Below are positions 14,021-24,671 of a DNA stretch of 64,000 nucleotides, piece by piece. This DNA comes from Paenibacillus wynnii. GTDB lineage: Bacteria > Bacillota > Bacilli > Paenibacillales > Paenibacillaceae. Where the stretch lies: NCBI RefSeq assembly GCF_000757885.1, contig NZ_JQCR01000002.1:2666001-2730000 (forward strand), given 5' to 3'. Position 1 is the first letter of the stretch. Every line of letters starts with the position of its first letter. The translations under genes were made by a program, and so were the position numbers. The notes beneath the pieces were generated by a model that saw nothing but the letters and a program-made list of their open reading frames with translations, was not told the DNA's origin and did no database searches.

Positions 14021-15292
14021 TCAGATTTTTTTGGCACCAGGCAACCAAGCATCGATATCATAACCCCGCTGTTCCCAATAGCCGATATGATCCCCCTCAA
14101 TTAGTTCGATCCTATTCAGCCATTTTACAGACTTATAAGCATACATTTTTGGGACTACCAGACGAACAGGGCCCCCAAGCTGATTTGAAATCGGCATCCC
14201 GTCATGCATCACAGCAACCATGATATCCGCCATACGTGCTTGCTCCATGGTTAGGGAATCTGTGTAAACCCCGTCACCGGAATAGAGCTTCACAGTTGCA
14301 GCCGTTTTCTGAACACCAGCCATATCCAATAGTGCAGTGAGAGGGATGCCTTCCCAAGTATTTTTATAGACAGACCAGCCGGTAACACAGTGAAAATCAC
14401 TGACCTGTACTTCACGCTTCAACTGAACGAATTGCTCCCAATTCCAGCTCAGCTTCTTATCCACTAGACCATCCACAGTAAAAGACCAATTGTCATTATT
14501 AAAAGAAGGGATGTCTGTAACCGTATATACGCGATAATGTCCGTCCGCTCCCCCACCAATCGGGGGTGAAGACTGCGGTAGAGGTACGGGTTCGGGGAGC
14601 AGTGTGTTCGCATTATCTGCCACATAGTCTTCCAAGCTTGGCGGTTTGAAGGATTGACCCACCCAACGTGTAAATGTAGGTCCCAAGGTTAATGCCATAC
14701 CTGCCCCCACGGCAACTTTGATGAAACCCCGACGCGTATAAAAAGGTTGCGGATGGGAAGGGGGGAGGGTGTCACGACCAACTAACTTTCCTGTATTCTC
14801 TTCCAGATCACTATCAGGAACAATGGATCTTTTTTGCGGTTCCTTGAGCCATTTCGTCCGGGTGATGGAGTGGTAGATGATCAACGGAAGTCCGATCCAA
14901 GTCAGTAGGTCATGGATGAAAAGTGCTGCATTCGCTGCCCGGGGTCCAGCCATTTTGAACTGCCACAGTACTAAGCCTGACAAGATCCACCCTATAAGCA
15001 ACCCCAGGACAACAAGTACATTGGCTTTTTGCGAGGTACGTCCTTTAAGGCGTTTCCAATGCTTAGCAGCGAGCAGCAAATAATAAATAACAGGAAGCAG
15101 TAACACTAGTCCGATTACGATGTGCCCCCACTTCAGCCACACACGGCCTTCCCCGAGTAATTCCCGCCAGAACCCGCCAAGCAGCATTAGACCGCTAAGA
15201 GCCAAGAACAGAACCAGCCAGGCATTCCATGCATGAATGGAGAGCAGTTTCTTCCCGTAACCCTTGCGAATACGAGCTAACCCTTTTTTCAC
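14021..15292 (-). CDS. Fusion of cytochrome b561-like membrane domain with YedY/sulfite-oxidase-fold molybdopterin oxidoreductase
   Basis: 423 aa. N-terminal part (1-145) has four TM helices (about 24-42, 54-76, 91-110, 122-142) with His residues suited to heme b (H20, H57, H127, H141). A twin-arginine-like TRRGFIK (186-192) before a hydrophobic stretch follows, then a molybdopterin-binding domain; Cys302 in FHCVTGWSVY is the expected Mo ligand, with LGGPVRLVVPKMYAYKS and KWLNRIELI near the end as in YedY/MsrP. In most bacteria the heme protein (MsrQ-like) and catalytic subunit (MsrP) are separate; here they are in one chain. Likely substrate (methionine sulfoxide or another S/N-oxide) is not settled. 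RBS AAGGAGG on the minus strand. Confidence 0.88.
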   Translation of the reverse strand: MKKGLARIRKGYGKKLLSIHAWNAWLVLFLALSGLMLLGGFWRELLGEGRVWLKWGHIVIGLVLLLPVIYYLLLAAKHWKRLKGRTSQKANVLVVLGLLIGWILSGLVLWQFKMAGPRAANAALFIHDLLTWIGLPLIIYHSITRTKWLKEPQKRSIVPDSDLEENTGKLVGRDTLPPSHPQPFYTRRGFIKVAVGAGMALTLGPTFTRWVGQSFKPPSLEDYVADNANTLLPEPVPLPQSSPPIGGGADGHYRVYTVTDIPSFNNDNWSFTVDGLVDKKLSWNWEQFVQLKREVQVSDFHCVTGWSVYKNTWEGIPLTALLDMAGVQKTAATVKLYSGDGVYTDSLTMEQARMADIMVAVMHDGMPISNQLGGPVRLVVPKMYAYKSVKWLNRIELIEGDHIGYWEQRGYDIDAWLPGAKKI

Positions 15293-15478
15293 CGGGATGT
15301 CCTCCTTCAGTATGTTCGAGTCGATTGTTCAACTTTTAACTAATTGTACCGCAAAAACTGTTCCATGAATAATGTTGCTGAACGTGACCACAGTCATTGA
15401 TTTTTAGCAAAGAGAAAGGCATCATTATAAAGTTCTAAATGAAGTTTAAACTGAAACAGTAGGGATGGGGAACAATCG

Positions 15479-16834
15479 ATGAAACAAGAAGTGCAATGGA
15501 AACCATCGCGTTTTAACGCGCGAACAACAGTGGATGACGGGGGACTCATGCTGTACAACAGCTATACGGGTGCCATCGCGGCGTTTTCGCCGGAGGAGAG
15601 CAGCAGAGTTATTGAATTGCTTTCCGGACCGGATGACCCTGTTCCTGATGGGGATTGCACTTTACACGAGGATCTCCTGGAGCACGGGTTTTTAGTTAGT
15701 CAGGATACGGATGAACTGCGGCGGGCGTTATATTTGCATCAGTCGATGCACCGTCAAGACAGCATGCACCTTGTGCTTCTAGCTACAGAGGCGTGTAATT
15801 TCCGCTGTAATTATTGTTATGAATATTTCCCGAGAGGAACGATGAAGAGTACGGTAACATCGGGACTCGAAAAATATATAGCCTCTCAAGTATCCACCTT
15901 AAACCGTCTGACGATTAGCTGGCATGGCGGCGAACCTCTTTTGGCTCCGCAAGTGATAGAGAGGCTGTCGCAATCTTTCATCGAATCCTGTGATCGTAAT
16001 GGAGTCGTTTATGGGGCAGAAATATCCACTAACGGATACTTTCTGGATCGTGAAATGTTCGACAAGCTATTGGACTGGCGTGTAGAACGTTTTATGGTTA
16101 CTTTGGACGGGGATGCGGAAGTACACAACCAGCGTCGCGCATTGACCGGCGGTGGAGATACTTATCAGCGGATAGTAGACAATCTGGTTTCCTTAAAAGC
16201 AGTGGATCGACCTTTTGAAATTAACCTGCGCGTGAACTTCGATAACAGCAACCTTGAGGCTGTAACTGAGTTTATTCCTGTTCTAAAAGATCTTTTCGGT
16301 GATGACCCGCGTTTCAAAGTCTACTTCCGTCCCGTGGGATGTATGGGCGGCGAGAACGATCTGAACCTTTCCGTATGTGATGATATCACCAAGGATACGA
16401 AGATTTGGGAGTTCAACGAGCAGGCGATTGCTCAAGGATTAACCGTAAGTTCTTTTATATCTGATATTCTTCTGCCTACAGGAGCTGTATGTTATGCGGC
16501 TAAACCGAACTCGTTGATTGTGGATTCAGACGGCCAGTTGTACAAGTGCTCCGTAGCCATTGACCAGGAGAATAACCAGCTTGGAAGTATTAATGAAGAC
16601 GGAACTCTAGATCTTGATCTAGATAAAATGGCCCTGTGGACCACCTCAGGTGAAGAGACCGACAGCAACTGTCAATCGTGCTTCTTCCGTCCTTCTTGTC
16701 AGGGCAATCATTGCCCGTTGTACCGTATGCGCACGGGAAACCGCCCTTGTTCTTATGAGAAACGGCAGATCAAGCAGACACTTCGGACCATTTGGCTGCA
16801 AGGTAAAGCTGAGGAGCAAGCTTCTAATGTGTAA
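15479..16834 (+). CDS. Radical SAM/SPASM peptide maturase (RiPP-type)
   Basis: 451 aa cytosolic Fe-S enzyme. N-terminal about 95 residues look like a peptide-recognition/PqqD-like region (LMLYNSYTGAIAAF). The SAM-binding cluster is C106-x3-C110-x2-C113 in ACNFRCNYCYEYF, followed by the GGEPLL motif (about 151) and STNGYFL. The C-terminal SPASM region has Cys at about 348, 367, 398, 401, 407, 412 and 424, enough for two auxiliary [4Fe-4S] clusters. This architecture (anSME/PapB-like, COG0641) modifies ribosomal peptides or proteins by thioether, C-C or formylglycine chemistry. No sulfatase is adjacent, while a 27-codon ORF with a perfect RBS lies 63 bases downstream, so RiPP maturation is the better guess. 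Confidence 0.88.
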   Translation: MKQEVQWKPSRFNARTTVDDGGLMLYNSYTGAIAAFSPEESSRVIELLSGPDDPVPDGDCTLHEDLLEHGFLVSQDTDELRRALYLHQSMHRQDSMHLVLLATEACNFRCNYCYEYFPRGTMKSTVTSGLEKYIASQVSTLNRLTISWHGGEPLLAPQVIERLSQSFIESCDRNGVVYGAEISTNGYFLDREMFDKLLDWRVERFMVTLDGDAEVHNQRRALTGGGDTYQRIVDNLVSLKAVDRPFEINLRVNFDNSNLEAVTEFIPVLKDLFGDDPRFKVYFRPVGCMGGENDLNLSVCDDITKDTKIWEFNEQAIAQGLTVSSFISDILLPTGAVCYAAKPNSLIVDSDGQLYKCSVAIDQENNQLGSINEDGTLDLDLDKMALWTTSGEETDSNCQSCFFRPSCQGNHCPLYRMRTGNRPCSYEKRQIKQTLRTIWLQGKAEEQASNV

Positions 16835-16861
16835 AGGTTAAGGAATGAAGCTCCTAGGCAA

Positions 16862-16880
16862 GAGCCTCATATGAGGGCTT
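16862..16880 (+). terminator. Attenuator-like hairpin between maturase and peptide ORF
   Basis: AGCCTCATATGAGGGCT contains the perfect 12-base palindrome CCTCATATGAGG and is followed by TTTT and directly by the RBS of the small ORF. It could lower read-through or cover the RBS. Confidence 0.4.
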
Positions 16881-16897
16881 TTAAGGAGGTGAAATAA

Positions 16898-16981
16898 ATG
16901 AAAGTTATTCGTCCTGCAGTTCAACCAACTGCGATTACTACTGGCCGTGTCTCCAAATCGGTTCCAGGCAGCCTCAGCTAA
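16898..16981 (+). CDS. Putative 27-aa precursor peptide (possibly truncated)
   Basis: Start ATG 16898 follows AAGGAGGTGA at 16883-16892, the best Shine-Dalgarno in this region. The product begins MKVIRPAVQPTAITTG and ends SKSVPGSLS: small, basic, no Cys, rich in Thr/Ser/Val. Placed directly after the radical SAM/SPASM gene, it is the natural candidate substrate. After its TAA the same frame stays open for another 38 codons to a TAA at 17096-17098, with a hydrophilic Asp/Tyr/Arg-rich composition (FVYVDRDETDP...). So the gene may be an interrupted 66-residue precursor or a true 27-mer. No recognised family. Confidence 0.5.
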   Translation: MKVIRPAVQPTAITTGRVSKSVPGSLS

Positions 16982-17098
16982 TTCGTCTATGTAGACCGTG
17001 ACGAGACTGACCCCAAGGAGCTAAGGCGCATACCGAAGGACAACTTTTACTCGTACAGGGATGTTATACAAAGTAACGGAGAGCAATTATATTCGTAA
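16982..17098 (+). pseudogene. In-frame continuation of the peptide ORF beyond TAA (possible lost core region)
   Basis: 38 sense codons in frame with the 27-aa ORF, ending at TAA 17096-17098, encoding FVYVDRDETD...YSYRDVIQSN...QLYS. It has no start codon or RBS of its own. A one-base change of the internal TAA (for example to TAT or CAA) would give a 66-aa protein. Chance openness of 38 codons is not rare (about one in six for random sequence), so this is suggestive only. Confidence 0.3.
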
Positions 17099-17138
17099 CA
17101 CAAAGCAGGGAGTAATCCTAACAGTACGAGGGCATGGT

Positions 17139-17185
17139 AAACAGGTATTTTGGGGGGGCTTCCCGGTGCCTGTTTTATTGTGTTT
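17139..17185 (+). terminator. Rho-independent terminator downstream of the peptide ORF
   Basis: AAACAGG ... CCTGTTT outer stem with a GC-rich inner loop (GGGGGGGCTTCCCGG), then TTTATTGTGTTTTTC. Confidence 0.65.
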
Positions 17186-17194
17186 TTCTTTTAA

Positions 17195-17376
17195 GTGTAG
17201 AAAGTGCAACTATTAACGAATACTTACCGCGCGTCGGTTGTTTAGATGTAGTTTATGCAGTTATTTGTCTGGTTTTTGGTGAGTATAGGTGTTTTTTTAA
17301 TTTATAGTTGTACTGAATACACTTATCGCACGTGGAGTTGGTCATATGCTCCAAATAGGTGTAGAAAGTGCAACTA
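17195..17376. repeat. Intergenic repeat with 18-bp exact direct copies
   Basis: GTGTAGAAAGTGCAACTA occurs exactly at 17195-17212 and 17359-17376. A second imperfect direct pair follows the first copy and precedes the second (CGAATACTTACCGCGCG near 17216 and TGAATACACTTATCGCACG near 17316). TAGTTGTACTGAATACAC near 17305 is an imperfect inverted match of the 18-mer (14 of 18), and GGAG...CTCC forms an inner hairpin. No coding potential seen in 17190-17455. Confidence 0.65.
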
Positions 17377-17380
17377 AAGT

Positions 17381-17426
17381 AGGCTCATCCTTCCCTGCAT
17401 AGGAGAAGTGATGAGCCTTTTCTTTT
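17381..17426 (+). terminator. Terminator-like hairpin between peptide locus and MFS gene
   Basis: AGGCTCATC / GATGAGCCT stem of 9 bp followed by TTTCTTTTG on the plus strand; it also lies just after the minus-strand MFS stop and may serve both directions, though the minus T tract is poor. Confidence 0.6.
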
Positions 17427-19042: not shown

Positions 19043-19114
19043 ACGCGTTAATTTTTAATAGATTCATTTAATGAATCGTCAGTTTCAAAATGAGCAATCG
19101 CTCTTTCTAAATAC

Positions 19115-20675
<1,561 letters not shown>

Positions 20676-20767
20676 TGGAGAATCGTTTCCTGTAACGGAA
20701 ACATTCGAACAGAAGCGTAAGCTTCTAAAAAACGCGTATCCATTTGTTCAGTTTTGATGGAATTTGA

Positions 20768-20843
20768 GGGGCCATAGCTCAGCTGGGAGAGCGCCTGCCT
20801 TGCAAGCAGGAGGTCAGCGGTTCGATCCCGCTTGGCTCCACCA
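20768..20843 (+). tRNA. tRNA-Ala (anticodon TGC)
   Basis: 76 nt in the 16S-23S spacer. Acceptor GGGGCCA pairs with TGGCTCC, D-loop AGCTCAGCTGGGAGAG, anticodon arm CCTGC-CTTGCAA-GCAGG with TGC, T-arm GGTTCGATCC, discriminator A and an encoded CCA. No tRNA-Ile accompanies it in the spacer. Confidence 0.98.
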
Positions 20844-21075
20844 ATAAACCATCTATTTTGTATGTCTAAAATAACTAAAAATGCAAGAAACCGTCTGTAA
20901 TTTTAACGGTAATATTCGTTAAGATTTAACAGAAACTTGATCCTTGAAAACTGGATACCGAAACGAATTTGCGTTTTAGAACATCTTATTACTGTAATTT
21001 GTGCAAACAAGTGAAGTGAAATTATGGCTTAGCGGAGATTTTCGATTGTGTAAACAAACGAAACATCAAAGCGTT

Positions 21076-24002
<2,927 letters not shown>

Positions 24003-24128
24003 AATATCTAAACGCAGATTTGTTTCGGATTCAGTTTTCAGGCGATCAAGCCTGAGCAAGATGTCGACCTTTATGGTTTGATATTTTCTCGCAGCGATTT
24101 CGAGAAGCGCAAGCTTCGAAAAATCATG

Positions 24129-24245
24129 TTTGGTGGCGATAGCGGAGGGGTTCCACGCGTACCCATCCCGAACACGACCGTTAAGACCTCCAGCGCCGAT
24201 GGTACTTGGACCGAAGGGTCCTGGGAGAGTAGGACGTTGCCAAGC
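24129..24245 (+). rRNA. rrf: 5S ribosomal RNA
   Basis: 117 nt from TTTGGTGGCGATAGCGGAGG to GGACGTTGCCAAGC, with terminal stem TTGG..GC / GTTGCCAA and the CCGAACACG loop typical of 5S. Confidence 0.97.
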
Positions 24246-24252
24246 ACATGAG

Positions 24253-24290
24253 ACCACTGTTGATTCATTCAACAGTGGTTTTTGTGTTTT
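24253..24290 (+). terminator. rRNA operon terminator
   Basis: ACCACTGTTGA / TCAACAGTGGT, perfect 11-bp stem with a 5-base loop, then TTTTGTGTTTT. Confidence 0.92.
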
Positions 24291-24297
24291 CTTTTTA

Positions 24298-24563
24298 CCT
24301 GTGGAAATGCTGTGGATAAATTGCAGAAAAACACAGAAAACTTACAAACATGTGGATACATCTTTTAATCGACCCAAAACGCCAAATATGTGGGTATAGC
24401 AGGGTTCTGCGGGTATTTTTTTATGAAAAACACAAGTAATCCACGGATCAATGTGTATAGGTGAATGGGGTTGTGGATACATTCTTCTAAGATGTTGATA
24501 ATTCGTCTGGCGGGTGTTCTTTACGCCGATTAATTTGAAACTTAAAACAGAGCCTGTTGATAA
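24298..24563 (+). other. Cluster of DnaA-box-like 9-mers
   Basis: In the gap 24291-24671: TGTGGATAA (24311-24319, exact DnaA box complement), TGTGGATAC (24351 and 24472), TGTTGATAA (24493 and 24555) and a partial TGTGGAAA at 24299; all in the same orientation. No gene is visible in this gap. DnaA binding is an inference from the motif; the nearby sequence is AT-rich but no unwinding element is evident and no dnaA gene is present. Confidence 0.45.
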
Positions 24564-24671
24564 CTTTTTCTATGAATAACTGGATGGTTTGATCTTTTGC
24601 ACAAGTGGCCTTGCGCATCTGGATCTGCATCCATAGAATAAGAATAAATACATATTAATGAGGTGACATTT

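Follow-up and report, generated by a model that had tools for sequence, protein, structure and literature searches.

We propose that a radical SAM/SPASM maturase gene of Paenibacillus wynnii and the short open reading frame (ORF) behind it form a two-gene RiPP cassette, probably regulated by oxygen, wherein an activator turns on expression and the maturase modifies a Cys-free peptide. On sequence evidence we judge this proposal likely to be correct, and the aliphatic character that we assign to the modification is a guess. The cassette lies in a 64,000-nucleotide stretch of DNA (hereafter called the window), and the pairing of the two genes, the conservation of the peptide, the selection acting on it, the single clade formed by the enzymes, and the architecture of the promoter were all observed directly. 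An earlier description of this DNA, made from the letters alone (the sequence-only reading), had offered three explanations for the small ORF: a new precursor, free of Cys and located downstream of its maturase, a precursor broken by one nonsense change, or a leader peptide with conditional read-through. Conservation, co-occurrence, and purifying selection now lend good support to the first of these.

A conserved short peptide is encoded behind the maturase gene

The maturase gene (positions 15479..16834, plus strand), recognized from its ORF, family models, and predicted structure, encodes a protein of 451 amino acids. As had been described, this protein carries a CX3CX2C cluster (C106/C110/C113) and a Cys-rich C-terminus, with SPASM Cys residues at positions 338, 357, 398, 401, 407, 412, and 424. 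The small ORF starts 63 nt past the maturase stop codon, where a strong Shine-Dalgarno (SD) sequence (AAGGAGGTGA, 16883..16892, plus strand) precedes the 27 codons of the candidate precursor peptide MKVIRPAVQPTAITTGRVSKSVPGSLS (16898..16981, plus strand, stop codon included). Both elements had been noted earlier, and the ORF proves to be conserved beyond chance in 78 of 80 related loci.

These related loci are the best 80 of 368 relatives, all from Bacillota by record title, with maturase identities of 43-97%. In 78 of them a peptide of 27-31 amino acids starts at most 391 nt 3′ of the maturase match. Our first search relied on a regular expression built on K/R, S/T/A/N, a V-like residue, P, and G. 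When SD-led ORFs of 20-40 amino acids were recounted with no sequence condition, all 78 loci again yielded their peptide, and thus the invariance of the peptide is not a product of the regular expression. One of the other two loci, L091, carries a different, Cys-containing peptide. The second, L042, shows no peptide in the 281 nt that remain before its contig ends; its enzyme falls within the clade described below and its promoter region has a full box, and so this locus counts against the cassette reading.

Together with the window, the collection holds 79 peptides, 59 of them distinct, all 27-31 amino acids long and typically ending in KSVPGN[L/I]x. The K, P, and G of this C-terminal block are invariant in all 79 peptides, and G occupies position -7 in 76, S position -2 in 71, V position -1 in 74, N position +2 in 67, and L position +3 in 75. 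A few members vary the S and V of the block (KNNPGG, KAAPGN), leaving K, P, and G as its only invariant residues. Among the 59 distinct peptides, none has Cys in the block (five have one Cys, always upstream of it) and none has Phe, Tyr, or Trp there; one peptide has His at -4 and two have it at +2. Start codons are ATG (71), GTG (7), or TTG (1), and stop codons are TAA (69), TAG (6), or TGA (4). The peptide is basic, and inspection by eye revealed no export signal. Cassette loci come from at least 20 named Bacillota genera (from record titles), including the thermophiles Geobacillus and Parageobacillus and many Paenibacillus.

Nucleotide substitutions indicate that the short peptide evolves under purifying selection. 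Compared with L013, a P. wynnii locus that is the nearest named relative (maturase 97% identical), the window ORF exhibits 2 synonymous and 0 nonsynonymous changes; compared with L014, there are 10 synonymous and 0 nonsynonymous changes over 26 codons. For the 12-codon C-terminal block, pN/pS over all pairs is 0.23, with synonymous sites near saturation.

The frame beyond the stop codon derives from an inserted GH1 fragment

The same frame does stay open for 38 codons beyond the TAA, as the sequence-only reading had claimed, and the composition of this tail is indeed coding-like. These two features speak for a 66-residue precursor, either interrupted by a nonsense mutation or produced by conditional read-through of the TAA. 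However, what the tail codes for is the end of a GH1 glycosidase, not part of a precursor. With X at the stop, the 66-residue frame matches 6-phospho-beta-glucosidase models (PRK09852, E 4.5e-7), mainly through its second part, and the 38 tail residues are 89% identical over 36 amino acids to the end of a 493-codon frame in the same genome, which encodes a full GH1 protein ending GFVYVDRDETDPKELKRIPKDSFYWYRDVIQSNGEEL. Furthermore, positions 16982-17377 match G000:C2:1644753-1645216 (72% with gaps, E 1.8e-79), a region composed of the 3′ end of the intact GH1 gene and its downstream repeat region. DNA and protein matches thereby define the segment at 16982..17377 (plus strand) as a copied 3′ end of a GH1 6-phospho-beta-glucosidase gene with its downstream repeat, amounting to about 396 bp of copied DNA between the TAA and the terminator. 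The 38 codons (16982-17095, plus strand) belong to this insertion and lie outside the cassette, in which the tail has no role. We take the frame that they share with the peptide to be an accident, for which there was one chance in three.

In L013, a terminator stands about 10 nt past the same TAA, with a shorter GH1 scrap behind it; L014 has a terminator after the TAA and, beyond that, an MFS gene. Both loci encode the same 27 amino acids and stop, and then continue into other DNA. The terminator hairpin of the window cassette (17382..17417, plus strand) is about 400 bp farther on than in L013, and the arrangement in these two relatives shows that the insertion pushed stop and terminator apart, cutting the hairpin off from the peptide. 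Homologues stop at the same place, and the DNA after the stop differs among close relatives; both observations, together with the inserted GH1 fragment, count against a precursor broken by one nonsense change and against a leader with conditional read-through. The sequence-only reading had stated that it would be refuted if homologous loci encoded just the short peptide with nothing conserved past the TAA, and as regards the tail this is what they do. Given the GH1 origin of the tail, the stops of the relatives, and the length of all 79 peptides, we reject the 66-residue precursor and assign it next to no probability.

The shorter scrap behind the L013 terminator implies that the GH1 fragment moved more than once or was cut differently. 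The repeat GTGTAGAAAGTGCAACTA occurs twice in the insertion (17195-17212 and 17359-17376), and the insertion has 47 matches in its own genome in all, many of them short ones to parts of the stretch. A dispersed repeat family may have carried the GH1 end to 16982-17377.

Peptide and maturase occur in the same genomes

In a genus sample, the maturase (E <= 1e-60) and the peptide (E <= 1e-3) are present in an identical set of 7 of 100 genomes. The family sample (n = 235) contains 28 genomes with a maturase at E <= 1e-80 and 25 at E <= 2.6e-174, and the genomes with a peptide are exactly those 25 with a close maturase. Three genomes (G936, G977, G994) lack the peptide and have a distant maturase only (E about 1e-115 to 1e-120). 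In a class sample of 398 Bacilli, the maturase (E <= 1e-80) is found in 18 genomes and the peptide (E <= 1e-5) in 11 of these, the other seven enzymes coming from outside the peptide-bearing clade; three genomes that lack the maturase gave peptide-profile E values of 0.007-0.009, which we treated as noise. A phylum sample gave maturase matches in 10 of 398 genomes (E <= 1e-60), where the only clade member is the window's own genome and the next-best match, G786 (E 4.7e-129), has a Cys-terminal peptide. The presence of the peptide in 78 of 80 loci and the identical genome sets (7/100 and 25/235) thus place a short conserved candidate precursor beside the enzyme, as in a RiPP locus. In one of the 11 Bacilli genomes that have the peptide (G183, L127), a single TGA interrupts the maturase frame and the peptide persists about 390 nt behind it; the gene either decayed recently or was misread in sequencing.

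We built a tree of 112 maturases, in which one clade (SH-aLRT 99) unites the 87 peptide-bearing entries with L042; this result should be read with caution because the tree was made by a quick method and the branches outside the clade are long. Six of 118 rows were left out of this tree, namely two from L127 (the broken gene and a neighbour frame), L113 (the same as the window), the short second frame of L153, and two from L159 that overlap with L153. Some rows represent the same species or genome from two collections (zero-length pairs such as L117/L050).

Maturases outside the clade are 34-43% identical to the window enzyme, and several are accompanied by peptides of 19-37 amino acids with Cys-bearing tails, such as NTNCNC, NNNNCNC, CNNCWC, and NVQCGG. 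The simplest reading would be one switch from Cys-bearing to Cys-free cores, although the direction is inferred. Very short Cys-terminal peptides were seen with the sister maturases L124, L125, L126, L131, L133, L150, and L163-L167, with three near-identical tandem copies (MKWIVKAAQERKATGNNNNCNC) in L126; these are possibly further unnamed precursor families. No Cys-tailed peptide was seen near the sister maturases L123, L130, and L132. Plasmid and phage records (6 and 4, respectively) contain distant relatives only, with identity of at most 41%.

The enzyme resembles peptide maturases in fold

The top family model for the maturase is TIGR04463 (rSAM_vs_C_rich), with 213 bits against a cut-off of 525, followed by TIGR04334 (Clo7bot), with 185 bits against 600; both scores are far below the curated cut-offs and place the enzyme outside these two families. 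The CefB model gives 144 bits (cut-off 600) and the PapB model 110 bits (cut-off 340). The partner peptides of all four of these best-matching models are presumably Cys-bearing, as some of the names suggest, whereas those of the window family are Cys-free.

An AlphaFold2 model of the maturase (48 alignment rows, mean pLDDT 87.2) is closest among solved structures to CteB (5why/5wgg; Z 25.9, residues 10-440), followed by anSME (Z 25.0, residues 94-448), ChlB (9gm3; Z 23.7, residues 94-443), and TigE (8vpo; Z 22.1, residues 3-443). The likeness is one of fold, as sequence identity to these four is only 16-18%. Moreover, CteB makes thioethers, whereas the core of the window family has no Cys, and the TigE substrate carries TIGSVS repeats, whereas the core here has no repeat motif. 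Ahead of the SAM core, strands (residues 7-36) and helices (38-89) appear in the whole-protein model, and the structural alignments, starting at residue 10 for CteB and residue 3 for TigE, cover this N-terminal part. It is compatible with an RRE-like fold and is a candidate leader-recognition domain.

The rank of anSME among the closest folds raises another reading, wherein the maturase acts on another protein, as a sulfatase maturase or something similar would, and the small ORF is unrelated. However, the sulfatase-maturase model gives only 81 bits against a cut-off of 349, on which basis we reject a sulfatase maturase identity. To find partners, we clustered all ORFs of at least 80 amino acids from 81 loci, all against all, with flanks of up to 8 kb. 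The sequence-only reading would have been refuted by a different substrate, such as a sulfatase, that always co-occurs, but only the maturase recurs family-wide in these loci; every other cluster is found in at most 21 of 81 loci (among them an ABC ATPase, LigA, NrdD, and RIC). The presence of peptide and maturase in the same genomes and the selection on the peptide also count against another substrate, and we regard this reading as very improbable.

The same 81 clustered loci exhibit no conserved exporter, immunity, or protease gene. We also tabulated the immediate neighbours of 41 loci, partly reading them by eye, and found no common theme outside one subclade. Anaerobic and NO-stress neighbours are limited to this Paenibacillaceae subclade (L073, L080-L086, L088, and L090, with L087 outside it), where the RIC iron-sulfur repair protein, NrdD (Pfam), and a TIGR04053 radical SAM protein score above cut-off, and NrdG-like and NarK-like transporter matches fall below the NCBIfam cut-offs. 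In L080, L082-L086, and L088, YwiC, the cassette, and the RIC gene are co-directional and are followed by a NarK-like/PAS fusion and the TIGR04053 radical SAM gene, a region that looks like an anaerobic/NO island. Elsewhere in the window, positions 19100-24600 contain no long ORFs and are possibly an rRNA operon.

A predicted CRP/FNR-type promoter precedes the proposed cassette

Upstream of the maturase gene is a putative CRP/FNR-type box of the form CGTGA-N6-TCATT (15383..15398, plus strand), whose form is shared with relatives and which is likely an activator site. A -10-like CATCAT (15420..15425, plus strand) is located 21 nt past the box, an arrangement that is the one of class II CRP/FNR activator sites. 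The same box form and 21-nt spacing recur in L013, L014, L015, L016, and L018, and the window, L013, L014, and L015 share CGTGA-N6-TCATT, the 21-nt gap, and CATCAT, even though the intervening DNA has diverged in L014 and L015.

We scanned 250 nt upstream of the cassette in 81 regions (80 loci and the window), using as controls 726 upstream regions of other ORFs from the same loci. A TGTGA-N6-TCACA box with at least 9/10 matches is present in 18 of 81 regions versus 37 of 726 controls (Fisher p 1.3e-6), although these and the following promoter counts are not independent, since loci and controls are related. Among inverted repeats with 5-base arms and gaps of 2-10, the commonest are GTGAC with gap 4 (23 loci), AGTGA with gap 6 (21), and TGTGA with gap 6 (18), which represent overlapping sites. 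A combined score (maximum 16) for the box and a -10 hexamer at 20-23 nt reaches at least 14 in 24 of 81 loci; the same threshold is reached by 16 of 726 controls and by none of 810 mononucleotide shuffles. Counted singly at a score of at least 13, the gaps of 21 and 22 nt account for 18 and 10 sites, respectively, and the other gaps from 14 to 31 for 2-9 each. At a score of 12 the figures are 50 of 81 loci versus 134 of 726 controls, and the window site itself scores 12, so that it rests on the form shared with its relatives. Against the promoter reading, 31 of 81 loci do not exceed a score of 11. As a family, then, the loci have the box and the -10 element at 21-22 nt that characterize class II CRP/FNR sites, with the window site being weaker. 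The P. ehimensis/elgii/tyrfis group includes seven loci that have YwiC ahead of the cassette, and there a score-13 site lies before YwiC. Sister maturases reach a score of at least 13 in 1 of 16 regions, which were cut slightly differently.

Among the proteins encoded by the window's own genome is L172, a Crp/Fnr family member that has a Cys cluster at its C-terminus and that we take to be Fnr-like from the Bacillus Fnr consensus and its Cys pattern. This Cys cluster and the anaerobic neighbours in one subclade make Fnr the likely, predicted regulator of the cassette. Since nine Crp/Fnr-type domains score above cut-off in this genome, Fnr is one candidate among several. By these sequence features, the cassette looks to be induced at low oxygen.

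The box sits in a gap common to the cassette and a divergent molybdopterin oxidoreductase gene (14021-15292, minus strand), which is above the cut-off for Oxidored_molyb and is MsrP/SorA-like at scores below the cut-offs. A similar divergent gene occupies the same place in L013 and L014, and the box could serve both the cassette and this gene.

The hairpin before the peptide is not a family-wide feature

The sequence-only reading had placed an attenuator-like hairpin before the ribosome binding site. Folding does predict a hairpin there (16850..16889, plus strand), but it is not a terminator; rather, an upstream CTCCT pairs with the SD, and so the hairpin could hide the SD of the peptide ORF. 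SD hiding as strong as that of the real sequence was obtained in 0 of 60 shuffles for the window, L013, and L014. In L030, a different structure of other sequence lies upstream of the peptide and likewise hides the SD (SD unpaired 0.06; 0 of 60 shuffles as low). Over 79 loci, mean SD unpaired is 0.448 versus 0.500 for shuffled sequences, with no clear trend, and we therefore reject the SD-hiding hairpin as a family-wide feature.

A regulatory role for the small ORF, in which its translation or the terminator controls the maturase mRNA and the peptide is no substrate, would fit the hairpin of the window lineage. It would also fit the position of the ORF as the last in the cassette and the terminator-like hairpin that a crude test finds behind it in 55 of 79 loci. 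However, selection acts on the amino acids of the peptide, the SD-hiding hairpin is not found family-wide, and the ORF is downstream of the gene that it would control. We give this reading only a slim chance.

A proposed mechanism and its relation to known systems

In the cassette that we favour, a CRP/FNR-family activator, most likely Fnr acting at low oxygen, would turn on the promoter before the maturase gene. The RRE-like N-terminal part of the maturase would bind the M[KR]x[IL]RPx N-terminus of the co-expressed 27-31 amino acid peptide, and the radical-SAM centre would then modify the C-terminal block G[RK]xxKSVPGN[L/I]. We guess that an aliphatic change is made at or around the invariant K, P, and G and the near-invariant S, V, and L, with C-C or C-O crosslinking, desaturation, cyclopropane formation, and epimerisation as the options. 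The relation of peptide to enzyme, the chemistry, Fnr as regulator, and the function are what we infer from sequence.

Because the block has no Cys, Phe, Tyr, or Trp, a thioether peptide or a usual cyclophane is unlikely. Specifically, the 59 distinct peptides offer no Cys donor in the core for a sactipeptide or ranthipeptide, and no aromatic residue, Glu-Tyr pair, or Val-Tyr pair in the core for a cyclophane, a Lys-Trp crosslink, PQQ, or mycofactocin. PQQ (PqqA/PqqE) and mycofactocin (MftA/MftC) arise from a tiny conserved precursor and a radical SAM enzyme, and each is a housekeeping product. The cassette is like these systems in its tiny, strongly conserved precursor and radical SAM enzyme, but it lacks both their Glu-Tyr or Val-Tyr pair and any further conserved pathway gene. 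Sister Bacillota maturases (L091, L122, L124, L125, L126, L131, L133, L150, and L163-L167), enzymes that are 37-43% identical, likewise have tiny peptides nearby; those peptides carry Cys-bearing tails and are in some cases upstream or in tandem, whereas the window family is Cys-free.

The known radical-SAM chemistries that remain for such a block are aliphatic ones or epimerisation (PMC8326336), an example of the former being the radical SAM RiPP enzyme TvgB, which forms cyclopropylglycine from Val and needs no Cys (PMC9062424). The TvgB substrate has TVGG repeats, whereas the family here has a single SVPGN in which Val is replaced in a few members (PMC9062424). As Val is missing from these members, a chemistry confined to Val would not apply to the whole family.

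The cassette probably makes an undescribed modified peptide, judging from searches of models and texts. No NCBIfam model reaches E 1 on 36 peptides, and neither PHROG on two peptides nor Pfam on the window peptide gives a match reaching E 1. In open-licence PMC texts, taken without figures and supplements, KSVPGN, SVPGNL, and longer strings occur in unrelated contexts only. No description of the KSVPGN peptide was found in this literature, although the supplement of PMC9062424, which covers 22 putative pathways, may list the cluster.

A bacteriocin-like product, processed and exported by housekeeping systems, is an alternative reading of the peptide. Small RiPP loci often produce antimicrobials, and the peptide is patchily distributed (11 of 398 Bacilli genomes). 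We nevertheless consider this unlikely, as the core hardly varies across Bacilli and Clostridia, immunity or exporter genes are not conserved, and the promoter is of the CRP/FNR type. This near-frozen block, and the lack of any exporter, immunity, or protease gene shared by the loci, point to a conserved function in physiology rather than to an antibiotic. The modified peptide may be a signal, cofactor, or regulator under oxygen limitation, and our guess is that the product acts inside the cell.

Implications

If the cassette reading is true, at least 20 named Bacillota genera make, from minimal parts, a peptide product for which we found no description. The near-frozen Cys-free core, set against the Cys-bearing peptides of relatives, would be a good test case for chemistry switching in SPASM enzymes, and the CRP/FNR-type promoter points to a growth condition under which to seek the product and its role. 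A bolder possibility, which we hold tentatively and with more doubt than belief, is that the product serves many Bacillota under oxygen limitation as a so far unreported cofactor or intracellular signal. A single enzyme would make it from a near-frozen peptide of 27-31 amino acids through an aliphatic chemistry on KSVPGNL that is new to this enzyme family, and the system would have a single origin from ancestors that had Cys-bearing peptides.
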